A DNA stretch of 64,000 nt. It comes from [Zimmermannella] faecalis ATCC 13722 (GTDB lineage Bacteria > Actinomycetota > Actinomycetes > Actinomycetales > Microbacteriaceae). Shown piece after piece: positions 4,048-20,790 of this stretch. Made by a program: the position numbers and the translations under genes. Location of the stretch: the NCBI RefSeq assembly GCF_000381765.1, contig NZ_KB907075.1:186001-250000 (forward strand), given 5' to 3'. The notes under the pieces are model-generated. The model worked only from the letters and a program-made list of their open reading frames with translations, did not search any database and had not been told where the DNA came from. Position 1 is the first letter of the stretch; the number at the start of each line of letters is the position of its first letter.

Positions 4048-4088
4048 TTGCCACCGCGACTCCGGCAATGTATACATTTGTATACAAA
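4048..4088 (+). promoter_or_regulatory. tcuA promoter covered by a double GTATAC GntR-type operator
   Basis: A -35 candidate TTGCCA (4048-4053) is followed after 17 bp by a -10 candidate TATACA (4071-4076). Two palindromes overlie the -10 and start region: TGTATACA (4069-4076) and TTGTATACAA (4078-4087), ten bp apart and so on the same helical face. FadR/FCD-type GntR regulators bind short TnGT-ACnA palindromes of this form. The GntR gene at 5587 in the same unit is the obvious candidate, which would make it autoregulatory. Confidence 0.6.
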
Positions 4089-9574: not shown

Positions 9575-9949
9575 TCAGTACGGCGCCGCGAGCTTCGGGA
9601 ACATCGGAAAGTGCTTGACGTTGCGGGTCAGCAGCCGCGCGTCGAGCGAGACGGCGGTCGCCGCGATCGCGAGGTCGGCGGAGTCAATGCCGCGGTTGCC
9701 TCGCAGCCACTTGCGGCCGAGTTCGCCCGCGATCTCGGCGATCTTCTCATCGAGGGGATGCCAGACGAAGGCGCCGAACAGCGACCTCGTGGCGGCCTCC
9801 TCGCTCGGCCGCATGCCCGCCAGCGCCTCGAGCCGCGTGACCTCGCTCGCGTGCAACGGCCCCGATTCCCGAGCGGTGCGCAGGCACTCGACGGCGGCTC
9901 GCTCGCCTCGCAGCACGTCGATGAGTACCGACGTGTCGACGAGCGTCAT
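9575..9949 (-). CDS. vapC: PIN domain toxin VapC
   Basis: A protein of 124 residues with the PIN-domain ribonuclease layout. It starts MTLVDTSVLIDVLRGE (first acidic residue Asp5), has a central Glu in SEVTRLEALAGM, and the C-terminal acidic pair in GIDSADLAIAATAV, with the typical later LDARLLTRNVKHF. The four acidic residues bind Mg2+ for RNA cleavage; VapC toxins cut tRNA or rRNA. It overlaps vapB by ATGA, the standard antitoxin-first order. Target RNA unknown. Confidence 0.9.
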   Translation of the reverse strand: MTLVDTSVLIDVLRGERAAVECLRTARESGPLHASEVTRLEALAGMRPSEEAATRSLFGAFVWHPLDEKIAEIAGELGRKWLRGNRGIDSADLAIAATAVSLDARLLTRNVKHFPMFPKLAAPY

Positions 9950-10203
9950 CGCGTCTGCGCCTCGTCGAGGCGGCCGCCCGACCGCAGCCCTTCGACATAC
10001 TCGGCGCCGTCAACCTCTCGGCCGGCCCACGCCCCGAAGGCGACGTCGATCGCCTCCAGGTCGTGCCGCGCATCCCGGTCGGCGCCGTACGTCACCGTCA
10101 CGGCGTGCCGGATGAGGGCCGAGATCGACCGGCCGGTGCGGGCCGCCTCGTCATCGAGCAGGCGCCGCTCGGCGTCGGTGAGCGAAATCTGCGTGCGCAT
10201 CAT
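9946..10203 (-). CDS. vapB: Ribbon-helix-helix antitoxin VapB
   Basis: A protein of 85 residues. Residues 1-45 form a ribbon-helix-helix DNA-binding unit (RTQISLTDAERRLLDDEA, then GRSISALIRHAV), and the C-terminal part (about 50-85) is the flexible toxin-neutralising tail. Two consecutive ATG codons open the frame (10203 and 10200). A perfect palindrome sits at its 5' end, as expected for autorepression by the VapBC complex. It overlaps vapC by four bases. Confidence 0.88.
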   Translation of the reverse strand: MMRTQISLTDAERRLLDDEAARTGRSISALIRHAVTVTYGADRDARHDLEAIDVAFGAWAGREVDGAEYVEGLRSGGRLDEAQTR

Positions 10204-10227: not shown

Positions 10228-10282
10228 TAACTAGCCCGGCGCTATCTCGTCCACCGCTAACTAGCCCGGCCCTAACTAGCCC
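10228..10282. repeat. Three copies of TAACTAGCCC in the vapB / monooxygenase gap
   Basis: TAACTAGCCCGGC occurs at 10228-10240 and 10258-10270, and TAACTAGCCC at 10273-10282. The last copy overlaps the 5' arm of the long hairpin, whose 3' arm carries the complement. Each copy contains TAA and TAG stops in different frames. Function unknown; possibly debris of repeated hairpin copying. Confidence 0.6.
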
Positions 10283-10337
10283 AGAAAACGGGGGTCCTCG
10301 TCACGTGGGTGACGAGGACCCCCGTTTTCTGGGCTAG
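10276..10337. terminator. Perfect 29-bp inverted repeat, likely terminator of the monooxygenase operon
   Basis: Arms 10276-10304 and 10309-10337 are exact complements (29 bp) with a four-base loop GTGG. The stem lies 63 bp beyond the stop of the leftward monooxygenase gene and before the vapBC promoter, so it would isolate the two units. On the leftward strand the stem contains AAAACGGGGG/CCCCCGTTTT but no clear U-tract follows. A stem this long and perfect is unusual for a terminator. Confidence 0.7.
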
Positions 10338-10399
10338 TTGGCCAAACGTCCGGCCCACAAGCGGCGGATGCGCGCGGCCGGCCCCGGCCCGGCCGCCAC

Positions 10400-11446
10400 C
10401 TACTGGAAGTTCGGCACGACCTCGCGCAGGAACAGTTCGAGCGACGCCCGCTTCTCGGCATGGGTCATGGAGTTGTCGATCCAGAACCCGAACTCGGTGT
10501 ACCCGAGCTCCTCGTACGAGCGCACGCGGGCCGTGACCTCTTCCGGGGTGCCGATGATCGCCGAGCGGTGCAGCGCCTCGGGCGAGTACTCGGGCTTGTC
10601 GGCGAAGTCGGCCTCGGGCAGCGGCTCGAGGAACCCCCGCTCGGGGGTCTGCTTGTTCGAGGCCCACGCGCCGAACGTGCGGTAGTACCGGTTGATCGCC
10701 TCGGCACCGGGGCGCCAGCCCTCGGGTTCGTCGGCGGGGTGCACGATCGTGTGGCGCAGCACCATCACCTCGGGCCGACCCTCCACCTCGGGGTGGTTTG
10801 CGACGGCCGTGTTCACCTTGTTCATGAGGTCGACGACCTCATCGTCGTCCTTGCTGAGCGGCGTCACCATGATGTTGTAGCCGTGCTCGACCGCCCAGTC
10901 GTGGGTGTTCGGGTCGCGCGCGGCGATCCACACGGGCGGGCCCGACTGCTGCACCGGGTTCGGCACCGCGGTCGAGGTGGGGAACTGCCAGTGCTCGCCG
11001 TCGTGGGCGTAGTCGCCCTCCCACAGCTTCACCATCGCGGGCACGAGCTCGCGCAGGTAGCTGCCGCCGTCGCGGGCCGAGAGGCCGCCGGCGAGGCGGT
11101 CGAACTCGAACTGGTAGGCGCCACGGGCGACGCCGATCTCGGCGCGGCCCTTCGAGATCACGTCGAGCAGCGCGGTCTCACCGGCGGCGCGAACGGGGTG
11201 CCAGAACGGCGCGATGACGGTGCCGGCGCCGAGGCGGATGCGCTCGGTCTTCGCGGCGAGGTAGGCGAGCTGCGGGAACGGGCTCGGCGAGGCGGTGAAC
11301 TCCATCGCGTGGTGTTCCCCGATCCACACGGTCGAGAATCCGCCCTCCTCGGCGAGTTGGGTGAGCTCGACGAGGTCGTCCCAGGCCTGCTGGTGCGGCA
11401 CCTCGTCGTTCCAGCGTTCCATGTGCACAAAGAGTGAGAATCGCAT
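10400..11446 (-). CDS. Luciferase-like (LLM class) flavin-dependent monooxygenase
   Basis: A protein of 348 residues with the bacterial-luciferase TIM-barrel fold. Seen: the N-terminal RFSLFVHMERWND, TVWIGEHHAMEFTASPSPF, RIRLGAGTVIAPFWHPVRAAGE, and the later IGTPEEVTARVRSYEELGYTEFGFWIDNS. Such enzymes use FMNH2 made by a separate reductase, and a flavin reductase is encoded divergently at 15988. It is the last gene of a seven-gene leftward operon, 13 bases after the tautomerase. In the trigonelline pathway of Acinetobacter a monooxygenase of this class (TgnB) opens the pyridine ring; that role here is inference from the gene set, and the substrate is unproven. Confidence 0.88.
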   Translation of the reverse strand: MRFSLFVHMERWNDEVPHQQAWDDLVELTQLAEEGGFSTVWIGEHHAMEFTASPSPFPQLAYLAAKTERIRLGAGTVIAPFWHPVRAAGETALLDVISKGRAEIGVARGAYQFEFDRLAGGLSARDGGSYLRELVPAMVKLWEGDYAHDGEHWQFPTSTAVPNPVQQSGPPVWIAARDPNTHDWAVEHGYNIMVTPLSKDDDEVVDLMNKVNTAVANHPEVEGRPEVMVLRHTIVHPADEPEGWRPGAEAINRYYRTFGAWASNKQTPERGFLEPLPEADFADKPEYSPEALHRSAIIGTPEEVTARVRSYEELGYTEFGFWIDNSMTHAEKRASLELFLREVVPNFQ

Positions 11447-11459
11447 GCGTCTGGTCCTT

Positions 11460-11693
11460 TCAGTTGCTGACGTCGTTGTCGGTCGAGGGGGCGGATGCGC
11501 TGGTCGCGACGCGCTCCCGGATGGTCTGGTTGCCCCGCGACCAGTGCGCGGGTTCGATCTCGCGCACGAGCACGGTGATGTTCTCGCTCGCGGCGCCGAC
11601 GGTTTCTTCGGCGACGCGGTGGACGCCGTCGATGAGGGCGCGAAGCTGCTCGGGCGTGCGGCCCGCGGCGATGGAGATGTCGATGAGCGGCAT
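11460..11693 (-). CDS. 4-oxalocrotonate tautomerase family protein
   Basis: A small protein of 77 residues. After Met removal it starts with Pro (MPLIDISIAAGRTPEQ), the catalytic N-terminal proline of 4-OT tautomerases, and contains the family stretch ENITVLVREIEPAHWSRGN. The family moves double bonds between keto and enol forms. The C-terminus is longer and polar (TSASAPSTDNDVSN) compared with the usual 62 residues. It sits between the aldehyde dehydrogenase and monooxygenase genes with 13-base gaps on each side. Tautomerisation of a ring-opened enamine or enol is plausible. A tautomerase is not part of the trigonelline pathway as I know it, so it marks a difference. Confidence 0.88.
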   Translation of the reverse strand: MPLIDISIAAGRTPEQLRALIDGVHRVAEETVGAASENITVLVREIEPAHWSRGNQTIRERVATSASAPSTDNDVSN

Positions 11694-11706
11694 TACCTCG
11701 TCCTCA

Positions 11707-13191
11707 CTACTTGGTTCGCAGCACGAAGGGGTCGGCGGCGGGTGAGTCGTCGGTGTTGATCCAGACGCTCTTGAGGCGGGTGTAGTCGTACATCGACTCG
11801 ATGCCGTGCTCGGTGCCGACGCCCGAGTCCTTGAACCCCTGGCGTGGCGACTGGGGGCTCATCATGCGGTACATGTTGAACCAGATCGTGCCGGCGTCGA
11901 TGCCCCGTGAGAGGCGCACCATGCGGTTGAGGTCGCGCGTCCACACGCCCGCCGCGAGGCCGTAGTTCGTGTCGTTCGCGGCGGCGAGCACCTCGTCTTC
12001 GTGCTCGAAGGGCGTGATCGCGGTGACCGGCCCGAAGATCTCTTCGCGCACGATGCGCATGTTCGCGGTCGTGTCGGTGAAGATCGTCGGCTGCAGGAAG
12101 TAGCCGGGCAGGTCGACGTCGGGGCGGCGCCCGCCGTAGTGGAGGTTCGCGCCCTCGCGCTCGCCGATCGCGATGTACTCGCGAACCTTGTCGTACTGCC
12201 CTTCGAAGGCGATGGGGCCGAGCTCGGTTGCGTCGTCGAGCGGGTCGCCGAGCTTGATGGTCGACGCGCGCTGGGTGACGCGTTCGAGTAGCTCGTCGTA
12301 GACCGACTTGTGTGCGAACACGCGGCTGCCGGCGATGCAGGTCTGGCCGGCCGCCGCGAAGACGCCCGCGACGATGCCGGTTGCCGCGTTTTCGATGTTC
12401 GCGTCGTCGAACACGATCTGCGGGCTCTTGCCGCCGAGCTCGAGGGTCGTCGTGACGAACCGGGACGCGGTCTTCGAGGCGATCGCGGCGCCCGTGCCGG
12501 TCGAGCCGGTGAACGAGATCTTCGCGATGTCGGGGTGATCGACGAGCGGCGAGCCGGCACCCACACCCGTGCCGGTGACGACGTTCACGACGCCGGCGGG
12601 GAACCCCGCCTCGAGCGCAAGCTCGGCGAAGCGGAGGATCGCCCGGCTCGTGTACTCGCTCGGCTTGATGACGAGCGTGTTGCCCGCCGCGAGCGCCGGC
12701 GACAGCTTCGACGTCGTGAGCGTGAGCGGCGAGTTCCACGGGGTGATCGCGCCGACGACGCCGAGGGGTTCGCGCAGCGTGTAGTTGAAGATGTCGGTCG
12801 AGGCCGCGGGAATCGTCGAGCCCTGAATCTTGTCGGCGAGCCCGCCGTAGTAATAGAGGTACTCGGGCAGGCCGCGCAGCTGGCCGCGCATCTCGCGCAG
12901 CAGCTTGCCGTTGTCGAGGCTCTCGTATTCGGCGAGCTCGTCGGCATGCTCGCCGATGAGGTCGCCGAGCCGGCGCAGCAGGTGGCCGCGCTGTGTCGCG
13001 GTCGTGCGCCGCCACTCGGGCGACTCGAACGCCGCCTTCGCGGCCCGCACCGCCGCATCCACGTCGCGCTCGTCGCTCGAGGCGACCTCGTAGAGCGTCT
13101 CGAGGGTGGCCGGGTTCGTGCTCGCGAGGTACTCGCCCGAGGCCGGGTCGCGATACTCGCCGCCGATGAAGTTACCGAACCGCTGAGTCAT
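11707..13191 (-). CDS. NAD-dependent aldehyde dehydrogenase
   Basis: A protein of 494 residues of the classical ALDH family. Motifs: ITPWNSPLTLTTSKLSPALA (cofactor pocket), SFTGSTGTGAAIAS, general base in LELGGKSPQIVFDD, catalytic Cys in AAGQTCIAGSRVFAH, and EEIFGPVTAITPFE. The end (SPQSPRQGFKDSGVGTEHGIESMYDY) follows the usual pattern. Its 5' end overlaps the alpha/beta hydrolase gene by 20 bases, so the two are translated together. In the proposed ring-opening pathway it would oxidise the semialdehyde left by the monooxygenase (TgnC-like role); this is inferred from the operon. Confidence 0.9.
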   Translation of the reverse strand: MTQRFGNFIGGEYRDPASGEYLASTNPATLETLYEVASSDERDVDAAVRAAKAAFESPEWRRTTATQRGHLLRRLGDLIGEHADELAEYESLDNGKLLREMRGQLRGLPEYLYYYGGLADKIQGSTIPAASTDIFNYTLREPLGVVGAITPWNSPLTLTTSKLSPALAAGNTLVIKPSEYTSRAILRFAELALEAGFPAGVVNVVTGTGVGAGSPLVDHPDIAKISFTGSTGTGAAIASKTASRFVTTTLELGGKSPQIVFDDANIENAATGIVAGVFAAAGQTCIAGSRVFAHKSVYDELLERVTQRASTIKLGDPLDDATELGPIAFEGQYDKVREYIAIGEREGANLHYGGRRPDVDLPGYFLQPTIFTDTTANMRIVREEIFGPVTAITPFEHEDEVLAAANDTNYGLAAGVWTRDLNRMVRLSRGIDAGTIWFNMYRMMSPQSPRQGFKDSGVGTEHGIESMYDYTRLKSVWINTDDSPAADPFVLRTK

Positions 13192-13933
13192 GGGGGTCTC
13201 CTTCCGCGCTCCGCAGGTGGAGCTCGAGGGCTTCGACGAACGCGTCTTCGCGTTCGATGGGGAGCATGTGTCGGGCGCCGGGCACGATTTCGGCCCGGGC
13301 GTCGTGGATGCGCTCGGCGAGCCGCCGCGTCATCGCGGGGGTCGAGCCGGGGTCGAGTTCGCCCGTGATGGCGAGCGTCGGGGCGGCGATGTCGGGCAGC
13401 AGCGGGGCCACCTGCCGGTCGCCGGTCGCGAACACCTCGTAGGCGACGAGGTACGAGCCGAGGTCGTTCGCGAGCAGCATCGCGCGGGTGCGCTCGCGCT
13501 CCTCGTCGGTGACGCCCGAGTCGTCGGGGTACCAGCGGTCGATCGCGCGCTCGGCGGCCGCGGCGAAGTCGTGCCGCGCCGTTTCGAGCCGCCCGAGCAC
13601 CGCATCCGCCTCGGCCTCGCTGCGGTCGCACACCGCGTTGACGCACGTGAGCGTGCGCACCCGGTCGGGCACGGTCGCGGCGAGCTGCTGCGCGATGAGC
13701 GCCCCGAGCGAGAAGCCCACGAGGTGCACGGGCCCGTCGGGCAGGCGCCGCCGCACGTCGTCGGCGAGCTCGGCGAGCGTGGCCGGTCCGACGAGCGGCG
13801 GTTCGGCACCGTGCCCCGGCAGGTCGAGCGCGATGGCGGGCTCGATGCCGTCGGCCGCGAGGCGGACCCGCACCGAGTCCCACATCGACCGGTTGAGGCC
13901 GACGCCGTGCAGCAGCACTACCGGGGTGGTCAT
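13172..13933 (-). CDS. Alpha/beta hydrolase
   Basis: A protein of 253 residues with the alpha/beta-hydrolase fold. It begins TTPVVLLHGVGLNRSMWD with the oxyanion-hole HG motif, has the nucleophile elbow VGFSLGALIAQQLA (Ser in GFSLG), a likely acid in ITGELDPGSTPAM and the catalytic His in PGARHMLPIE near the C-terminus. It starts two bases after the DUF1185 gene and overlaps the aldehyde dehydrogenase. Hydrolases of this fold split N-formyl/acyl-aminomethylene succinates in trigonelline and vitamin B6 catabolism, releasing succinate semialdehyde; that is the role I would test first. The sequence alone does not fix the substrate. Confidence 0.88.
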   Translation of the reverse strand: MTTPVVLLHGVGLNRSMWDSVRVRLAADGIEPAIALDLPGHGAEPPLVGPATLAELADDVRRRLPDGPVHLVGFSLGALIAQQLAATVPDRVRTLTCVNAVCDRSEAEADAVLGRLETARHDFAAAAERAIDRWYPDDSGVTDEERERTRAMLLANDLGSYLVAYEVFATGDRQVAPLLPDIAAPTLAITGELDPGSTPAMTRRLAERIHDARAEIVPGARHMLPIEREDAFVEALELHLRSAEGDPHDSAVR

Positions 13934-13935
13934 GG

Positions 13936-14502
13936 CTACTTCTTGTCGAAGTCGGTGCCGAATACGGCGAGCCGCTGCTGCGGGCGGCCCTGGTTCGCGG
14001 CCGCGAGCGCGATCACGATCTCGCCGGGATGCGGGGCGTCGGCGATGCGCACCTCGACCGACTGGTGGTGCGAGCGAATCTTCATGTCGGTGATGTGCTT
14101 GAGCGGAATGTCGAACACGGTGCCCGACACGGCGCGCTTCTCGACCGCGGGCAACAGGGTGGTCGCGTCGGTCGCATTGCGGAAGTGGTCGCCGAACTGC
14201 AGCGTGTGGATGAGCGCCGAGCCGTGCTCGATCTCGCCGTCGGTGCCGACGATCGCGGCCTTGCCGTAGGCCTCGACCGGCTCGCCGAGCGCCTCGACGA
14301 CGCGGGGCGCGAGCAGGGCACCGAGCGCCGAGGCGATCTCGTCGAGGCCCTCGTTCAGGTCGGCGACGTAGCCGCGGCCGTGCCAGGGGTTGTCGATGAC
14401 GGCGGCGACGATCGCGACGCGGTGCGTGCGCTCGACCGACTCACCACCCTCGAGCAGCGTCTCTTCGACGACGGTCGTGATTTTGCGTGGGGAGATGCTC
14501 AT
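13936..14502 (-). CDS. Amino acid synthesis family protein (DUF1185, PF06684), copy 1
   Basis: A protein of 188 residues. Its family was structurally described as a variant of the Bacillus chorismate mutase fold with a suggested role in amino-acid metabolism, but no reaction is established. Seen: VVEETLLEGGESVERTHRVAI, NPWHGRGYVADLNEGL, EAYGKAAIVGTDGEIEHGSA, LIHTLQFGDHFRNATDA, and a late HHQSVEVRIADAPHPGEIVI. Copy 2, just upstream, has the same order of blocks (EHAGALIHTPYFGNLVREFL, NHYQSIDVSLPDAPHADE). The ATG at 14502 overlaps the stop of copy 2 (ATGA). The paired, translationally coupled copies suggest a hetero-oligomer. Confidence 0.85.
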   Translation of the reverse strand: MSISPRKITTVVEETLLEGGESVERTHRVAIVAAVIDNPWHGRGYVADLNEGLDEIASALGALLAPRVVEALGEPVEAYGKAAIVGTDGEIEHGSALIHTLQFGDHFRNATDATTLLPAVEKRAVSGTVFDIPLKHITDMKIRSHHQSVEVRIADAPHPGEIVIALAAANQGRPQQRLAVFGTDFDKK

Positions 14503-15137
14503 GCGAGGAGTCCTTCCAGAATGGTGGCGTCGATTGGCTTGTCGGTGGTGCGGTCGCCGATGCGGGGGTGGGGGCGCGGCCCGGTCGAGGCGACCGCGAT
14601 CACGGCGAGCTCGTCGGCGTGGGGTGCGTCGGGCAGCGACACGTCGATCGACTGGTAGTGGTTGCGGTTCGTCGCGTGCGTCTTGTGCCACATCGGCACC
14701 CGCACGTGGTCGCCCGGCTCGGCGCGGCCGTCGGTGAAGCAGAGCACCGAGGTGCCCTCGAGAAACTCGCGCACGAGGTTGCCGAAGTACGGGGTGTGGA
14801 TGAGCGCGCCGGCGTGCTCGAGTTCGCCCGCAGTGCCGACGACGGCGGCCTTGCCGAAGGTTTCGATGTTCGCGGCGCCGCCGAGGGCGGCGAGGAGCCG
14901 GTCGCTGAGCAGGCGCGCGAGCACGGGGGCGACGCGCTGCGTTTCTGGCGCGAGGTCGGCGTCGGTGCCGCCGTCGAGGAACGGGTTGCGCAGCACGGCG
15001 ACGGCGGCGGCCCGCCGCAGCGGCGTCGCGATCGCGGTGCCACCGTCGGCGGCGAGCTCCTCGACGGTCGTGGTGAGGCGACGCACGCCGAGCGAGGCGG
15101 CGAGCTCCTCGTACGTCGTGGGCTTGGTGGTGGTCAT
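14499..15137 (-). CDS. Amino acid synthesis family protein (DUF1185, PF06684), copy 2
   Basis: A protein of 212 residues, a diverged paralogue of the gene that follows it. Shared blocks are RRAAAVAVLRNPFLDGGTD, ETFGKAAVVGTAGELEHAGA, LIHTPYFGNLVREFLEG, VPMWHKTHATNRNHYQSIDV and SLPDAPHADELAVIAVASTG. It has an N-terminal extension of about 25 residues relative to copy 1 (EELAASLGVRRLTTTVEEL). It starts 35 bases after the GntR gene, so it is the first structural gene of the leftward operon. No catalytic residues are known for the family; the conserved GKAAVVG and ALIHT blocks are likely at the active surface. Function in this catabolic setting is unknown. Confidence 0.85.
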   Translation of the reverse strand: MTTTKPTTYEELAASLGVRRLTTTVEELAADGGTAIATPLRRAAAVAVLRNPFLDGGTDADLAPETQRVAPVLARLLSDRLLAALGGAANIETFGKAAVVGTAGELEHAGALIHTPYFGNLVREFLEGTSVLCFTDGRAEPGDHVRVPMWHKTHATNRNHYQSIDVSLPDAPHADELAVIAVASTGPRPHPRIGDRTTDKPIDATILEGLLA

Positions 15138-15172
15138 TCTTGGGACGCTCCTTTGCGCGGGCACGCGGCGGA

Positions 15173-15859
15173 CTATTCGGGCAGGTCGGCGGCGGGCACC
15201 GACGACTGCAGTGCGGCGACGCTCGAGGCGTAGACGTGGCCGCGCATCCGAAGGTCGGCGGCGACGGGGTCTTTCGACGCGATCGCGTCGAGCACGAGGT
15301 GGTGCTCGTGGGTCGAAGCCTCGAGCCGACCGGGCACCTCGATCGAGTTGAGCACGAGGCGGTGGTACGCGAGCTGGTTCATCATGAGCTCGTAGTGCTC
15401 GATGAGCTTCGTGTTGTCGGCGCCGCGGATGATCGTCGTGTGGAACTCGTGCACGAGCTTCGCGTAGGCGGCGTGGTCGTTCGCCGCGAGCGCCGCGTCG
15501 GAGTCGGCGACGTTGCTGCGCAGCAGTTCGAGCTGCGGCACCTCGCCGCGGCGGGCCATGAGCGCGGCGCCCATGCCCTCGAGCGCCTCCTTGAGCTGGA
15601 ACATCTCGACGATCTCGCGCCGGGTTGGCACTCGCACGAACGTGCCGACGCGCGGGCGAATCTCGACGAGCCCCTCGTTCTCGAGCAGCTTGAGCGCCTC
15701 GCGAATCGGGGTGCGGCTCACGCCGAACTCGTCGGCGAGCGACGTCTCGGGCATCTGGTCGCCCGGCATGAATCGGCCGTCGAGAATCGCCAGGCGCAGC
15801 CGCGTGGCGAGCGGGAGCTGGCCGGATGCGGGCGCGGCAGCAGGGCGGGTCTCTTGCAT
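15173..15859 (-). CDS. GntR family (FCD domain) regulator of the catabolic island
   Basis: A protein of 228 residues. The winged helix spans about residues 15-80 (SLADEFGVSRTPIREALKLL, then GLVEIRPRVGTFVR), and the FCD ligand domain follows (FQLKEALEGMGAALMARRGE, HEFHTTIIRGADN, HEHHLVLDAI, with metal-site His residues). I chose the ATG at 15859 because a TTGACA-17-TTACGC promoter ends seven bases before it, indicating a leaderless message; a TTG at 15895 would lie inside that promoter. It is the first gene of the leftward operon and probably represses both it and the divergent reductase-transporter unit. Confidence 0.9.
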   Translation of the reverse strand: MQETRPAAAPASGQLPLATRLRLAILDGRFMPGDQMPETSLADEFGVSRTPIREALKLLENEGLVEIRPRVGTFVRVPTRREIVEMFQLKEALEGMGAALMARRGEVPQLELLRSNVADSDAALAANDHAAYAKLVHEFHTTIIRGADNTKLIEHYELMMNQLAYHRLVLNSIEVPGRLEASTHEHHLVLDAIASKDPVAADLRMRGHVYASSVAALQSSVPAADLPE

Positions 15860-15895
15860 ACAAGAAGCGTAAATGCATACAAGACGACGTGTCAA
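15854..15895 (-). promoter_or_regulatory. Leftward operon promoter with two GntR operator copies
   Basis: Read leftward: -35 TTGACA (15895-15890), a 17-bp spacer, -10 TTACGC (15872-15867), then seven bases to the regulator's ATG at 15859. On the plus strand the direct repeats TTGCATACAAG (15854-15864) and ATGCATACAAG (15873-15883) are 19 bp apart; one fills the spacer and one covers the transcription start and start codon. They resemble the TTGTATACAA site before tcuA. This geometry predicts autorepression. Confidence 0.65.
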
Positions 15896-15950
15896 CCAAC
15901 CCGCCAGATTCCCCGCATAGACCCGTTTTTACTGAGAAGTCGCGAAGGTG

Positions 15951-15996
15951 TTGACATCCGGAGATTGCACTCCATATGCTCTCTTGCATGCATGAA
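15951..15996 (+). promoter_or_regulatory. Rightward promoter of the reductase-transporter unit with an overlapping operator
   Basis: -35 TTGACA (15951-15956), 18-bp spacer, -10 TATGCT (15975-15980), then seven bases to the ATG at 15988, again indicating a leaderless message. CTTGCATGCATGA (15983-15995) covers the start codon and matches the TTGCAT half of the operators on the other strand. The layout mirrors the leftward promoter. Confidence 0.6.
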
Positions 15997-16950
15997 CGCA
16001 TCAAGGAAGCTGTCGTTACCGCATGGACCCGCGCCTGGGATTTCGGCGACGTCGATGCCTTCGACTCGATCTCATCCGACTCGTACACGCGCGTGAACTC
16101 CGCCACCGGCGGCGAAATGTCGCTCGCCGAGCTGAAGCAGATGGTGCTCGACGTTCGCGCGGGCCTCCCCGACATCGAGACCGTCATCGACCGCATCCTC
16201 GTCGACGGTGACCTGCTCGCCATCTACTGGCACACGACGGGCACGTTCACCGGCACCCTCGGCGAGGTTCCGGCCACCGGCAACCGCGTCGTCACCGCCG
16301 GCGCCAACCTGAGCTACCTCGAAGACGGCGTCATCGTGCGCGAGGAGGTGACGTGGGATACGAGCGCGCTGCTGCGCGACGCCGGTATCGCCTCGCTCGC
16401 CTCGGCCTTCGAGCCCGACCTCGCTCCCGAAGCGGCCGACGCCGATGCCGAGGCGCAGCTGCCCCGCGAAATGCTCAAGGCCTTCAACAAGCAGTTCATC
16501 TCGGGCGTCACGGTCGTCACCGCGTACGACGATGACAACCAGCCGCGGGGGCTCGTCGTGAGCTCGTACAACTCGGTGTCGCTCGACCCGCCGCTCGTGC
16601 TGTTCTGCGTCATGAAGACCTCGTCGACGTATCCGTTCCTGTTCCGGGCGAAGCACGTCGGCATCAACATCCTCAGCTCCGAACAGCACGACACCCTGCA
16701 GGTGTTCGCGAGCAAGGCGAGCGACAAGTTCGCGGGCCTCGACTGGCACCCGGGGCCCGAGGGCAGCCCGCTCATCGACCGTTCCGCCGCGATCATCGAA
16801 GTTGAGATCAAGGAACGGTTCCAGGCCATGACCCACACGGTGTTCATTGGTCGCGTGCATCACGCAGAGACGAGTGATGACGCACCGATCGTCTACAAGG
16901 CCGGCAAGCTGTACGACGGTCGCCAACTCGCGCCAATCGACGCGGCGTGA
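15988..16950 (+). CDS. SnoaL/NTF2-like domain fused to a flavin reductase
   Basis: A protein of 320 residues with two domains. Residues 1-130 are SnoaL-like (EAVVTAWTRAWDFGDVDAFD, a mid-domain IYWHTTGTFTGTLGEVPATG, LEDGVIVREEVTWDT). Residues 150-320 are a flavin reductase of the FMN-binding split-barrel type (KQFISGVTVVTAYDDDNQPR, SSYNSVSLDPPLVLFCVMKT, FRAKHVGINILSSEQ, DRSAAIIEVEIKERFQAMTH). The reductase half would supply reduced flavin to the monooxygenase at 10400. I do not know this fusion from standard two-component monooxygenases. The SnoaL half might bind the substrate or ring-opened product. A start at 15976 would add four residues, but the promoter favours 15988. Confidence 0.85.
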   Translation: MHERIKEAVVTAWTRAWDFGDVDAFDSISSDSYTRVNSATGGEMSLAELKQMVLDVRAGLPDIETVIDRILVDGDLLAIYWHTTGTFTGTLGEVPATGNRVVTAGANLSYLEDGVIVREEVTWDTSALLRDAGIASLASAFEPDLAPEAADADAEAQLPREMLKAFNKQFISGVTVVTAYDDDNQPRGLVVSSYNSVSLDPPLVLFCVMKTSSTYPFLFRAKHVGINILSSEQHDTLQVFASKASDKFAGLDWHPGPEGSPLIDRSAAIIEVEIKERFQAMTHTVFIGRVHHAETSDDAPIVYKAGKLYDGRQLAPIDAA

Positions 16951-16976
16951 CCCATATCCCACGAAGGGACCCCTCC

Positions 16977-18641
16977 ATGTCAGATATCCGCACCGTGGTC
17001 GACCCCGCAATGGGCGACCCCGAGCCAGGTAACTTCAACCGCGTCCTCGAAGCCGGCGAAGAGTCGCCCGCGCAGGTCGACGCCGAGCGCAAGCGGCACC
17101 GCCCCGGCGTCGTCTTCTACATCTCCGTCAGCCTCGTCATCGCCTTCACGCTCTGGGCCGCGCTCGCGCCCACCTCGCTGTTCGACTCGATGACGGTCGG
17201 CATGAACTGGGCCGCCGAGTCGATCGGCTGGCTCTACCTCGTCGTCGCGCTCGGCTGCATCGGTCTGCTCGTCTACCTCGCGTGCAGCCGCTTCGGGCGC
17301 ATCCGCCTCGGCCGAGAGGGCGACCGGCCCGAGTTCTCGACGCTGTCGTGGCTCGCGATGATCCTCTCGGCGGTCATGGGCATCGGCCTCATCTCGTACG
17401 GTGTCGCCGAGCCGATCATGCACTTCGCGGCGCCGCCGCACGCGCTCGCCGAGGCGGGCACGATGGACGCCGCGGTGCGCGCCCTGCAGTTCTCGTACTT
17501 CGACTGGGGCCCGCACGCGTGGGCAATCTTCGGCGTCTTCGGCCTCGCGATCGCGTACTCGACCCACCGCCGCGGCAACACGGGCCTCGTCTCGCCGATG
17601 CTGCGACCCGTGCTCGGCAAGCTCGTCGACGGCTGGGTCGGGAAGGTCATCGACATCTTCGCGATTCTCGCGACCCTCTTCGGCACCACGACGTCGCTCG
17701 GCCTCGGCGCCTCGCAGATCTCGGAGGGCCTCGAGCGCGTCATCGGGATTCCCTCGAACACGATCACGATGGTGCTCATCATCGCGGTCATCACCGTCAT
17801 CTTCACGCTCTCCGCGCTGTCGGGCGTGAACCGCGGCATCAAGTACCTGAGCCAGATCACGATGAGCCTGTCGGTGCTGCTCGGCGTCTATGTGCTGTTC
17901 GCGGGGCCGACGAACTTCATCAGCAACGTGTTCTTCCGCTCGGTCGGCCAGTACCTCAGCGACTTCTTCCAGGTGAGTCTCTACACGCCCGCGACCTCTG
18001 ACGACGTCGCGTGGATGCAGTGGTGGACCTACTTCATGATGGCCTGGTGGCTGAGCTGGGGCGCCTTCGTCGGCGTGTTCCTCGCGAAGATCTCGCGCGG
18101 CCGCACCGTGCGCGAGTTCGTCGCCGGCGTGCTCGGCGTGCCGAGCCTCGTGTTCTTCACCTGGTTCACGATCACGGGCGGCGCAGCGATCGCGATGGAC
18201 ATGTCGGGCAAGACCGACATCGCCTCGGCCGCGAACGAGGACATCAACTCGGCGTTCTTCGAGATGCTCGGCGGGCTCCCACTTTCGGGCGTGACATCGG
18301 TCATCGCGATCATCCTCGTCGTGCTCTACTTCGTCTCTGGCGCCGACGCGAACACGTACGTGCTCAGCATGCTCTCGTCGCGCGGCACCCTGAACCCGAC
18401 GAAGCCGGTGCTCACGGTGTGGGGCGCGCTCACGGGCGTCGTCGCGCTGTTCCTGCTGCTCGCGGGCGGCCTCACGGCGCTCCAGCAGGCGGCGATGATC
18501 TCGGCGCTCCCGTTCACGATCATCGTCGCGCTGCTCGGCATCTCGCTCATCCGTGAGCTGCAGCGCGACCCGGCATTCGACTACACCCGCGACGTCACCC
18601 GCGGGGATGTGCGCACGCAGGCGATCCGCGTCGGCAAGTAG
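16977..18641 (+). CDS. BCCT family betaine/choline/carnitine-type transporter
   Basis: A membrane protein of 554 residues with about 12 helices. The N-terminus has about 45 polar residues before the first helix (PGVVFYISVSLVIAFTLWAA). The BCCT signature is clear: MQWWTYFMMAWWLSWGAFVG followed by VFLAKISRGRTVREFV, and the trimethylammonium-box region is present (MILSAVMGIGLISYGVAEPI). The family imports quaternary ammonium compounds by Na+ or H+ symport. It starts 26 bases after the reductase fusion gene and shares its promoter. Because it is coregulated with a ring-opening monooxygenase set, I infer the cargo is an N-methylated betaine such as trigonelline rather than an osmolyte. Confidence 0.92.
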   Translation: MSDIRTVVDPAMGDPEPGNFNRVLEAGEESPAQVDAERKRHRPGVVFYISVSLVIAFTLWAALAPTSLFDSMTVGMNWAAESIGWLYLVVALGCIGLLVYLACSRFGRIRLGREGDRPEFSTLSWLAMILSAVMGIGLISYGVAEPIMHFAAPPHALAEAGTMDAAVRALQFSYFDWGPHAWAIFGVFGLAIAYSTHRRGNTGLVSPMLRPVLGKLVDGWVGKVIDIFAILATLFGTTTSLGLGASQISEGLERVIGIPSNTITMVLIIAVITVIFTLSALSGVNRGIKYLSQITMSLSVLLGVYVLFAGPTNFISNVFFRSVGQYLSDFFQVSLYTPATSDDVAWMQWWTYFMMAWWLSWGAFVGVFLAKISRGRTVREFVAGVLGVPSLVFFTWFTITGGAAIAMDMSGKTDIASAANEDINSAFFEMLGGLPLSGVTSVIAIILVVLYFVSGADANTYVLSMLSSRGTLNPTKPVLTVWGALTGVVALFLLLAGGLTALQQAAMISALPFTIIVALLGISLIRELQRDPAFDYTRDVTRGDVRTQAIRVGK

Positions 18642-18686: not shown

Positions 18687-18715
18687 ATCTCGTCGTACGA
18701 TGAGCAGCGAGTACA

Positions 18716-18836
18716 CGTGCTCCGGGGTCGGTGAAAGTCCGAGCCGGCGGTAAAGTCCGCGACCCGCATCCTTCGGGATGTGGCTGATTCGGTGTAATTC
18801 CGAAACCGACGGTGAAAGTCCGGATGGGAGGCGCGC
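18716..18836 (+). promoter_or_regulatory. FMN riboswitch (RFN element)
   Basis: The aptamer is recognisable by its ordered conserved blocks: GGTCGGTGAAAGTCC, CCGGCGGTAAAGTCCGCGA, a variable hairpin (GCATCCTTCGGGATG), GGCTGATTCGGTGTAATTCC, then ACCGACGGTGAAAGTCC and GGATGGGAG, flanked by short closing complements. It senses FMN and shuts off flavin synthesis or uptake genes. The next gene is an ABC permease start at 18911. In the 75-base platform CGGGG at 18888-18892 can pair with CCCCG just before the start codon, placing the ribosome binding site in the loop; this suggests translational control, as an inference. Confidence 0.93.
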
Positions 18837-18910
18837 GGTATTTGACGTTGCTTGGCAATGTCGCGCAGTGCGTTGATCCCGGGGCGAACACCAACCGAAG
18901 GAAACCCCCG

Positions 18911-19747
18911 ATGGACCGCACCCGACGCATCTGGCCGCGCCTCGCCGCGCCCGCCGGCCTCGCGGTCGCGCTGCTGTTCGCGTGGGAGTTCGCGGTGCGC
19001 GGCGGCCTCATCGCCGCCGAGTTCCTCCCCGCGCCGACCGACCTCGCGGGCCGCTTCATCACCGAGGTCACCTCGGGCCCGCTGCTCGAGTACACGCGCG
19101 TGACGCTGCTCGAGGCACTGCTCGGCACGCTCATCGCCGTGCTTGTCGCCGTGCCGGTCGGCTATCTCATCGCCCGCGTCGTGTGGGTCGACCTCGCCGT
19201 GACGCCGTACGTCACGGCCTCGCAGGCGATTCCGGCCGTCGCCCTCGCCCCGCTCCTCGCGCTCTGGATCGGCTACGGCCTCACCCCCATCGCGATCCTC
19301 TGCGCGATCGTCGCGTTCTTCCCGATGCTCGTCACGACCGTGCTCGGCGTGCGCGCCCTGCCGAGCGACGTCATCGAGGCCGCCCGCCTCGACGGCGCGA
19401 ACTGGTGGCAGAGCCTGCTCTGGGTCGAGGCGCCGCTCGCGATGCCGAGCGTGCTCGCGGGCCTGCGCGCCGGCACCGCCCTGTCGATCACCGGCGCCGT
19501 CGTCGGCGAGTTCACGATGGGCGGCCGCGGCCTCGGCATGCTCCTCACCCTCTACCGCGACGCGAACGACACCGAGGGCCTGTTCGCGACCCTCGTCATG
19601 CTCGTGATTCTCGCGGTCGGCCTCTTCACGATTCTGCGCGTGCTCGAGGCCGTGCTCGCGTCGCGCTCCCGCGCCCGCACATCCGATTCCGCCCAGACTC
19701 CCGCCGACGACGAGTTTCAGCTCGTCGCCCCGGCCGCTGCCCAGTAA
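18911..19747 (+). CDS. ribX: RibX-type ABC transporter permease
   Basis: A membrane protein of 278 residues with about six helices, of the SsuC/ThiX-type permease family. The cytoplasmic EAA loop, which docks the ATPase, reads IEAARLDGANWWQSLLWVEA followed by PLAMPSVLAGLRAG. It starts with MDRTRRIWPRLAAP after GAAGGAAA. It lies directly downstream of an FMN riboswitch and upstream of an NMT1-like binding protein, the arrangement called RibXY, which imports riboflavin or a precursor. No ATPase gene lies in the unit, so it must borrow one. The C-terminal 30 residues are polar. Confidence 0.88.
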   Translation: MDRTRRIWPRLAAPAGLAVALLFAWEFAVRGGLIAAEFLPAPTDLAGRFITEVTSGPLLEYTRVTLLEALLGTLIAVLVAVPVGYLIARVVWVDLAVTPYVTASQAIPAVALAPLLALWIGYGLTPIAILCAIVAFFPMLVTTVLGVRALPSDVIEAARLDGANWWQSLLWVEAPLAMPSVLAGLRAGTALSITGAVVGEFTMGGRGLGMLLTLYRDANDTEGLFATLVMLVILAVGLFTILRVLEAVLASRSRARTSDSAQTPADDEFQLVAPAAAQ

Positions 19748-19761
19748 CAAAGGACCCAATC

Positions 19762-20790
19762 GTGGCTCGCTCTCGACTCACCCGTTTCACGACCGCGGTC
19801 GCCGCGGCAACCGCCGCCGTGCTCGCGCTCGCCGGCTGCCAGGGCGGCGAGCCCGGCTCGACCACCGCATCCGGCGACACCCTAACGATCGGCCTCACCT
19901 ACACGCCGAACGTGCAGTTCGCGCCGTTCTACGTCGCCGAAGAGCTCGGCTACTTCGACGAGGCCGGCGTCAACGTCGAGCTGCGCCACCACGGCGAGAG
20001 CGAAGACCTGTTTGGCGCGCTGAAGAGCGGCACCGAGCAGCTCGTGTACGCGGGCGGCGACGAGATCACGCAGGCGGTCGCGGGCGGCGTCGACATGCAG
20101 TCGGTCGCGACGCTCTACAACACGTACCCGGCCGTGCTCATCGTGCCCGACGACTCCGAAATCGAGTCGGCGGCCGACCTCAAGGGCCACTCGGTGGGCG
20201 TGCCGGGGCTCTACGGCCAGACCTACTTCGCGCTGCTCGCGATGCTTGCCGACGCGGGCCTCACCGACGCCGACGTCGACATTCAGGCGATCGGATACAC
20301 GCAGCAGGCAGCGCTCACGGGCGACCGGGTCGACGCGGTGATGGGCTTCGCGAACAACGACGCCGTGCAGTTCGAGGCGAGCGGCTACGCGATTCGCACG
20401 ATCGAGGCCGTCGACCCCGAGCATCCGAACCTCGTGGGCCCCGCCGTGTCGGCCGACGCGGCGACGATCGCCGACCGCGGCGACGACATCGCGGCCGTGC
20501 TCGAGGCGGTCGACCGCGCGATCGAGTACATCGAGCAGAACCCCGAGGAGGCCGTGGAGATCACGGCGAACTACGTGCCGACGCTCGGCAGCGACGAGGC
20601 GAAGGCGCAGGCCCTCGCGACGCTCGAGGCGACGATTCCGCTGCTCGCGCCGCTCGCCGACCAGCCGCTGCTCACGAACGACCCCGACACGTGGGCCGCG
20701 ATGGCCGAGTTCATGCACTCGGCCGGGCTCATCGACACCGAGGTCGACGCCGAGTCGCTCTACACGAATGAGTTTGTGCCGGGCGAGTGA
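19762..20790 (+). CDS. ribY: RibY-type substrate-binding lipoprotein (NMT1/THI5-like)
   Basis: A protein of 342 residues. The signal peptide ends in a lipobox (LALAGC, Cys near residue 26). The mature domain has the NMT1/THI5-like opening TIGLTYTPNVQFAPFYVAEE followed by LGYFDEAGVNVELR, then the family stretches KGHSVGVPGLYGQTYFALL and YTQQAALTGDRVDAVMGFAN. It would capture riboflavin or a pyrimidine-like precursor outside the membrane and feed RibX. I chose GTG at 19762, 14 bases after the ribX stop with AAAGGA upstream. FMN control comes from the riboswitch upstream of ribX. A thiamine-precursor cargo is less likely given that riboswitch. Confidence 0.88.
   Translation: MARSRLTRFTTAVAAATAAVLALAGCQGGEPGSTTASGDTLTIGLTYTPNVQFAPFYVAEELGYFDEAGVNVELRHHGESEDLFGALKSGTEQLVYAGGDEITQAVAGGVDMQSVATLYNTYPAVLIVPDDSEIESAADLKGHSVGVPGLYGQTYFALLAMLADAGLTDADVDIQAIGYTQQAALTGDRVDAVMGFANNDAVQFEASGYAIRTIEAVDPEHPNLVGPAVSADAATIADRGDDIAAVLEAVDRAIEYIEQNPEEAVEITANYVPTLGSDEAKAQALATLEATIPLLAPLADQPLLTNDPDTWAAMAEFMHSAGLIDTEVDAESLYTNEFVPGE

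Follow-up and report, generated by a model that had tools for sequence, protein, structure and literature searches.

A probable trigonelline-type catabolic island with paired DUF1185 proteins in [Zimmermannella] faecalis

The window analyzed here, a 64,000-nucleotide stretch of the [Zimmermannella] faecalis ATCC 13722 genome (2.85 Mb, G+C near 70%), contains between positions 10400 and 18641 a gene island that is probably an actinobacterial island for trigonelline-type catabolism, a reading that is well supported, not proven. Trigonelline is an N-methylated pyridine and a common plant and plankton compound. The original prediction had proposed a trigonelline-like ring-opening route with extra components and had seen in it a candidate for an undescribed system. 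The first part stood as far as the enzyme classes, an orthologous cluster on the pSymA replicon of Sinorhizobium meliloti, the BCCT carrier and the methylamine genes beside a few clusters are concerned, whereas the description of the DUF1185 proteins as extra did not; "undescribed" was too strong a word for what is a variant of a described kind. If true, the reading places a trigonelline-type ring-opening route in Actinomycetota and gives DUF1185 a firm catabolic context.

The genes of the island are the following.

10400..11446, minus strand: luciferase-like monooxygenase dependent on reduced flavin mononucleotide (FMNH2), presumed TgnB role (PF00296, Bac_luciferase, 2.6e-61)
11460..11693, minus strand: tautomerase resembling 4-oxalocrotonate tautomerase (4-OT) (PF01361, 1.7e-15)
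11707..13191, minus strand: aldehyde dehydrogenase (Aldedh), presumed TgnC role (PF00171, 3.7e-167)
13172..13933, minus strand: alpha/beta hydrolase, PcaD-like, presumed TgnD role (profile search)
13936..14502, minus strand: DUF1185 protein b, TgnF family (PF06684, 1.5e-58)
14499..15137, minus strand: DUF1185 protein a, second paralogue (PF06684, 4.5e-53)
15173..15859, minus strand: GntR/FCD-family regulator (PF00392 and PF07729; ATG start chosen, TTG at 15895 possible)
15976..16950, plus strand: SnoaL domain fused to flavin reductase, presumed TgnA role (PF07366, 3.3e-19; PF01613, Flavin_Reduct, 1.6e-36)
16947..18641, plus strand: BCCT transporter, BetP-like (PF02028, 6.5e-172)

On the minus strand, the genes extend from that of the GntR regulator, which starts near 15859, to the end of the monooxygenase gene at 10400; the plus-strand set covers 15976 to 18641. 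Overlaps between the aldehyde dehydrogenase and hydrolase genes, the two DUF1185 genes, and the reductase and BCCT genes indicate operons. All the components originally named were found with strong profile scores, including SnoaL and flavin reductase in one protein. The transcripts, described at first as facing each other, in fact diverge from a common promoter region at about 15.9 kb. When eight proteins were scored against NCBIfam (the two DUF1185 proteins being left out), no equivalog cut-off was reached among the matches listed, and only the BCCT protein passed a subfamily cut-off; thus, the function of the island is not readable from standard annotation.

Relatives were gathered by tblastn from plasmids, from named genomes (with a Pantoea-like monooxygenase as the query), and from genomes of the same order and family. 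For Pseudomonadota, 80 loci were kept, the best of 266 matches to one Pantoea-like monooxygenase query and hence a non-random sample. An orthologous monooxygenase was present in 22 actinobacterial relatives, and the set of 21 loci used below omits L125, which carries the monooxygenase alone. Two variant loci with no monooxygenase orthologue, L169 (genome G860) and L207 (G373), stand outside the set and were added for the operator count (23 loci). Linkage was counted within 9 kb of the monooxygenase by tblastn at 1e-5 with the window proteins and a few reference proteins, a procedure that could overlook small proteins that have diverged, the tautomerase for example.

Genes for DUF1185, hydrolase, flavin reductase and aldehyde dehydrogenase were all found near the orthologous monooxygenase in 79 of the 80 Pseudomonadota loci and in 19 of the 21 actinobacterial ones (aldehyde dehydrogenase in 80/80 and 20/21, respectively). 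Since the core recurs in this way, the gene arrangement is not due to chance. Among 396 genomes of the order, searched with cut-offs of E 1e-60 for the monooxygenase and E 1e-15 for DUF1185, the monooxygenase occurred in 14 (own genome included), DUF1185 in 17, and both in 13, while a family search found the monooxygenase in 9 of 299 genomes (own genome included). This nearly invariant linkage in the examined loci of two phyla argues against an ordinary, unrelated flavin monooxygenase cluster (for alkanes, sulfonates or a secondary metabolite) that merely has enzyme classes in common with the trigonelline route. The best solved-structure matches of the monooxygenase, namely, bacterial luciferase and luciferase-like monooxygenases, would be compatible with such a cluster, but its scores fell far under the SsuD, SfnG and NtaA cut-offs, and we consider that explanation very improbable.

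The actinobacterial loci showed two DUF1185 genes in 21/21 cases, the tautomerase in 20/21, and the SnoaL domain in 19/21, compared to none of the 80 Pseudomonadota loci for either the tautomerase or SnoaL, so that the proposal of these two as additions to the scheme was borne out as an actinobacterial feature. One weak SnoaL match lay just outside the 9 kb in L040. At least two DUF1185 genes were found in five of the 80 Pseudomonadota loci (L058, L078, L082, L088 and L089), the extra one being a second gene or part of a second cluster copy, on the other strand. Together with the SnoaL fusion, an operator motif that is conserved and upper modules that can be exchanged, the tautomerase and the paired DUF1185 genes distinguish the actinobacterial form.

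A link to trigonelline came from pSymA of S. meliloti Rm41. This replicon has a single PF06684 gene and, at E 1e-5, a single monooxygenase match (49% identical to the window protein), both in one cluster at ∼708 to 713 kb, in which genes for DUF1185, hydrolase, reductase, monooxygenase and aldehyde dehydrogenase are followed by an ABC importer and a match to succinate-semialdehyde dehydrogenase (SSADH). The DNA of the cluster is 99.9% identical in strains 1021 and 2011. A passage of PMC4207669 distinguishes S. meliloti lacking pSymA from the wild type on 10 mM trigonelline, on which only the wild type grows. Because the only DUF1185 and monooxygenase matches of pSymA lie in this cluster and pSymA is needed for growth on trigonelline, the cluster is the best candidate for the trigonelline genes, at the level of the replicon.

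Monooxygenase orthologues from the order and family searches were 65 to 71% identical. In a tree of 58 rows picked from a larger number, the window protein fell, with a support of 100/100, within a set of 24 rows made up of 23 actinobacterial rows and one long, unsure row (L207 and L208 formed very long branches of unsure placement). Its end branch (0.36) was the longest of the 23, and in G373 the luciferase-like enzyme of the otherwise same cluster is a different one (27% identical). Both observations, together with the BCCT carrier, would suit an island for the analogous ring opening of some other N-methylated heterocycle or betaine, for example homarine or N-methylnicotinamide. Nevertheless, the core genes match the cluster tied to trigonelline through pSymA, and for homarine, the authors of PMC8269262 argue that steric hindrance makes TgnA/TgnB activity improbable. 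We regard a different N-methylated substrate of this kind as unlikely.

Free methylamine is expected from the cleavage of an N-methylated ring and ammonia from that of pyridine. In Aquabacterium olei pTB101, the cluster is directly preceded by genes annotated as glnT, class II amidotransferase, glxC and FMN-binding glutamate synthase, which we take to encode gamma-glutamylmethylamide synthetase and N-methylglutamate synthase. Methylamine-assimilation matches were found in the flanks of 5 of 135 loci, with at least two genes in L048, L090, L115 and L216 and one in L051. MgsC was present in 6 of 22 monooxygenase-positive genomes, in neither of the two variant genomes and in 3 of 56 negative genomes (one-sided Fisher p = 0.013, kinship uncorrected), and it lay ∼10 kb (G176) and ∼13 kb (G101) from the monooxygenase.

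Transport genes were also considered. BCCT carriers, which usually take quaternary or N-methylated compounds, were found in 16/21 actinobacterial loci and in 3/80 Pseudomonadota loci (L047, L083 and L085, from marine-type Rhodobacterales). The window BCCT protein aligned with BetP at E 1e-101, keeping the Trp residues of the betaine box with a change of Tyr to Phe at one place; the numbering and roles of the aromatic-box residues are those that we presume for BetP. In the hydrolase, Ser75, Asp194, His222, Arg104, Arg115 and Arg133 were invariant in 25 sequences. The first three residues presumably form the catalytic triad, and the three arginines would suit a dicarboxylate. A solved-structure profile search with this protein (cut at E 1e-20) yielded esterases, an enol-lactonase and similar hydrolases, while a single-sequence search matched alpha-(N-acetylaminomethylene)succinate hydrolase at E 7e-8, a match for which no residue equivalence is claimed.

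The methylamine genes linked to some clusters, the BCCT carrier with most of the BetP aromatic residues kept, and the three hydrolase arginines all speak against an island that opens unmethylated pyridine or a simple alkylpyridine in a Pyr-like manner, giving ammonia, formate and succinate semialdehyde. For its part, the Pyr pathway of Arthrobacter sp. 68b, which reportedly acts on unmethylated pyridine, is said to employ the same enzyme classes (luciferase-like monooxygenase, reductase, aldehyde dehydrogenase, amidohydrolase and SSADH). Five of the 21 actinobacterial loci carry NCS1 carriers and no BCCT, and a closely similar cluster in Arthrobacter dokdonellae is accompanied by SSADH, riboflavin kinase and an NCS1 permease. 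On balance, a pyridine substrate appears rather improbable.

Several points weigh against the trigonelline-type reading. The link between pSymA and trigonelline is to the replicon, not to the cluster, and the Pseudomonadota monooxygenases are only ∼43 to 53% identical to that of the window. The MgsC counts are uncorrected for kinship, the six positive genomes belonging to four genera and the three of the negative set to one family, and a genome-wide search found no MgsC in the host. Transporters vary, with NCS1 in 43/80 Pseudomonadota and 5/21 actinobacterial loci and a polyamine-type ABC importer in 34/80 Pseudomonadota loci. DUF1185 occurs without an orthologous monooxygenase in 4 of the 396 genomes, and the monooxygenase of G005 (L125) is the sole query gene found in 20 kb. 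The likeness to the Tgn system of Acinetobacter baylyi is by enzyme class and description alone, and of the Acinetobacter plasmid records with DUF1185 (n = 6), one was examined. There is also no SSADH in the island. An SSADH gene in the cluster may be no strict mark of such systems, since an SSADH-type match within 9 kb was found in 19/80 Pseudomonadota and 2/21 actinobacterial loci, leaving 61/80 and 19/21 relatives unmatched. Elsewhere, the host genome has two SSADH candidates with intact frames, 57% and 52% identical to that of A. dokdonellae.

A route can be proposed in which the BCCT carrier would import trigonelline (N-methylnicotinate) or a very close N-methylpyridinium acid, the SnoaL-flavin reductase would make FMNH2, and the luciferase-like monooxygenase would use it with O2 to open the N-methylated ring. 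The aldehyde dehydrogenase would then oxidize the resulting aldehyde or hydroxylactone to a carboxylate, and the alpha/beta hydrolase would cleave N-methylformamido-methylene-succinate to formate and methylamine. The remaining formyl-succinate type acid would lose CO2, possibly helped by the tautomerase, giving succinate semialdehyde, and an SSADH encoded elsewhere in the genome would finish the route. The DUF1185 pair, of the TgnF family, may assist the lower steps. The part from ring opening to decarboxylation is modeled on the published trigonelline pathway as Perchat reportedly described it in 2018.

The tautomerase is proposed for the decarboxylation because a beta-formyl acid remains at that point and malonate semialdehyde decarboxylase, a member of the tautomerase superfamily, decarboxylates such acids. 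Pro-1, Arg-11, Arg-43 and Trp-50 (numbering without Met) were identical in 20/20 actinobacterial sequences. The position corresponding to Arg-39 of 4-OT, located from the alignment with 3ry0 and presumably functional in 4-OT, was mostly Thr (17/20). A carboxymuconolactone-decarboxylase-family gene occurred within 9 kb in 17/80 Pseudomonadota loci (L008, L035 and L070 among them) and in 0/21 actinobacterial ones, and its product may perform the step assigned here to the tautomerase. As for the reductases, the two stand-alone Pseudomonadota proteins that were scanned each have an unassigned C-terminal half behind the reductase domain; in a Mesorhizobium protein, hydrolase and reductase are fused.

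The two PF06684 (DUF1185, "AA_synth") genes of the island were the only ones found in the host genome. Structures of this family have been solved, and their authors left the function open, as a passage of PMC2954203 indicates. According to part of PMC7913881, HcdD of the 7-hydroxycoumarin cluster is a DUF1185-type protein homologous to TgnF, and TgnF stimulates TgnE-dependent oxidation of succinate semialdehyde in A. baylyi. Given this described homology, the DUF1185 proteins can no longer be called extra to the trigonelline scheme: PF06684, found twice in the island, is its TgnF-type mark, by way of the likeness of TgnF to HcdD. Against the trigonelline-type reading, the authors of HcdD did not see a TgnF-like stimulation with it, as the same part of PMC7913881 reports. 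In DUF1185b, residues E90, E92, H93, H99, R143, H145, R173 and R177 were invariant. Its AlphaFold model (predicted local distance difference test score, 84.7) was poor at residues 143 to 145 and 174 to 188, and a fold comparison returned only 3byq and 2qtp at E 0.001 or better. Reading an enzyme function from the fold was rejected, these two being the sole clear structural neighbors.

DUF1185 genes were also observed in other settings. Plasmids of Sulfitobacter and Sagittula carry a DUF1185 pair (L010, 7426 to 8591; L215, 7426 to 8585) accompanied by genes for 6-hydroxynicotinate reductase, a molybdenum hydroxylase, UPF0280 and a Rieske oxygenase, which is a case of DUF1185 in another N-heterocycle cluster. 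G143 and G157 (L208 and L209) contain a single DUF1185 gene (52 to 54% identical), in whose vicinity lie genes of an ABC importer and a distantly related luciferase-like gene (27 to 31%), perhaps another related cluster type.

The divergent promoter region contains three copies of the motif TGYATRCA, located where the GntR and SnoaL-reductase genes start.

15855-15862 and 15874-15881, unstranded: two putative GntR operator sites, TGCATACA (motif search)
15985..15992, unstranded: third putative GntR operator, TGCATGCA, at the start of the SnoaL-flavin reductase gene (motif search)

Five copies were found in the 64 kb, compared to 0.63 expected, and none of 100 shuffles reached five; the two further sites, at 4069 and 4079, are unrelated. 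Of 50 sites in the 23 actinobacterial loci, 49 lay in the intervals from −350 to +60 bases around the starts of GntR, DUF1185a, SnoaL-reductase and importer genes; these intervals account for 31,036 of 449,276 bases. At least one site was present in 21/23 loci, and simple shuffles of the same loci gave ∼9 sites in total. The GntR protein is predicted to control both divergent operons through these sites.

A related island occupies the same chromosomal site in G860, the sixth same-genus genome (L169, 7764 to 16623). Its DUF1185a, DUF1185b, hydrolase and aldehyde dehydrogenase are 76, 90, 74 and 92% identical to those of the window, respectively, and it also contains an ABC importer, a zinc alcohol dehydrogenase and an isochorismatase-like gene. 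No match to the monooxygenase, tautomerase, SnoaL-reductase or BCCT was found at the site, nor was any monooxygenase match found in the G860 genome at 1e-60. Since the flanking genes show similar identities (77 to 94% to the window), the core was probably present in the common ancestor, with the upper part probably exchanged or lost in one line. Plasmid relatives of the G860 alcohol dehydrogenase amounted to five records at E 1e-60; the two examined (Skermanella and Ancylobacter) lay in TRAP/CoA-transferase clusters and gave no substrate clue. In G373 (L207, 6984 to 15318), only the monooxygenase is missing from the full cluster, its place being taken by the luciferase-like protein mentioned above. 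Each of the two swaps is a single observation.

These variants raise the tentative possibility that the actinobacterial form is a modular platform, in which a fixed lower unit and one type of GntR operator are combined with exchangeable upper units, the lower unit serving several ring-derived substrates. The lower unit would comprise the two DUF1185 proteins, the hydrolase and the aldehyde dehydrogenase. As upper units there would be the monooxygenase, tautomerase and BCCT carrier in the window, the zinc alcohol dehydrogenase and ABC importer in G860, and the other luciferase-like enzyme in G373. The tautomerase would act after the hydrolase, in a decarboxylation or enol step, its place being taken in some Pseudomonadota by the carboxymuconolactone-decarboxylase-family protein. 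Two same-genus genomes with the same lower unit and site and different first steps amount to a natural experiment on the roles of DUF1185 and the tautomerase.

In five of the six same-genus genomes, the insertion site is empty, the DUF3151 and riboflavin-type ABC genes being separated by 0.25 to 1.5 kb free of cluster genes, compared to ∼9 kb in the window; one of the five, G1043, carries the cluster elsewhere (L159). At the island edge, the inserted stretch also includes the following pair, for which no match was found at the six same-genus sites.

9575..10203, minus strand: PIN-domain/RHH toxin-antitoxin-like pair (PF01850, PF01402)

Between this pair and the monooxygenase gene, a perfect 31-nucleotide inverted repeat with a 4-nucleotide loop (10274-10339) is preceded by TAACTAGCCC repeats at 10228-10283; this inverted repeat may be a palindromic element or act as a strong terminator in both directions. 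On the other side, an FMN riboswitch (99 bits) precedes an ABC permease and an NMT1/THI5-type binding protein (18714-20790), presumably a riboflavin importer of the RibXY kind. These genes were rejected as part of the island: they and the riboswitch are kept at all six same-genus sites, five of them without the island, and are thus ancestral neighbors.

No account of an actinobacterial cluster of this kind was found in the open-access literature, a scope that leaves out most subscription papers. Among the known systems, HcdD of Pseudomonas mandelii 7HK4 is a DUF1185-type protein encoded beside a zinc-type alcohol dehydrogenase, similar to the G860 variant, but in a cluster for another substrate class with FMN reductase and cupin genes unmatched here, as described in part of PMC7913881. 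The Pyr system of Arthrobacter sp. 68b can be likened to the window by enzyme class only, no Pyr sequence having been recognized in the collections searched. The Tgn cluster of A. baylyi ADP1 reportedly combines the same classes, from the flavin reductase and the luciferase-like monooxygenase to the aldehyde dehydrogenase and the hydrolase, with TgnE, an SSADH. Its TgnF is homologous to a DUF1185-type protein, as PMC7913881 states, and its TgnB is UniProt Q6F9F6 according to a figure legend in PMC11354265. Unlike that system, the window has two DUF1185 genes, a tautomerase, a SnoaL-fused reductase and a BCCT carrier, while the cluster lacks an SSADH. A plasmid that carries the cluster (L006, CP060162.1) and is recorded as Acinetobacter venetianus was rejected as a guide to the A. 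baylyi genes, its monooxygenase being 100% identical to that of Pantoea eucrina; it represents a recent transfer or a mislabeled replicon. Eight of 369 genomes were positive in a class-level search, and in none did the loci show the low G+C that we presume for Acinetobacter; a 16S probe pattern gave no match in any of the 369. The S. meliloti pSymA cluster shares with the window the DUF1185, hydrolase, flavin reductase, monooxygenase and aldehyde dehydrogenase genes in one run, and differs from it in a single DUF1185 gene, no tautomerase or SnoaL match in 18.5 kb, and a polyamine-type ABC importer in place of BCCT. Finally, plasmid pDCT5 of A. dokdonellae, annotated by class only, has an NCS1 permease instead of BCCT and adjacent SSADH, NUDIX and riboflavin kinase genes, while it resembles the window in gene order, both DUF1185 proteins, the tautomerase, the SnoaL-reductase and the GntR regulator.

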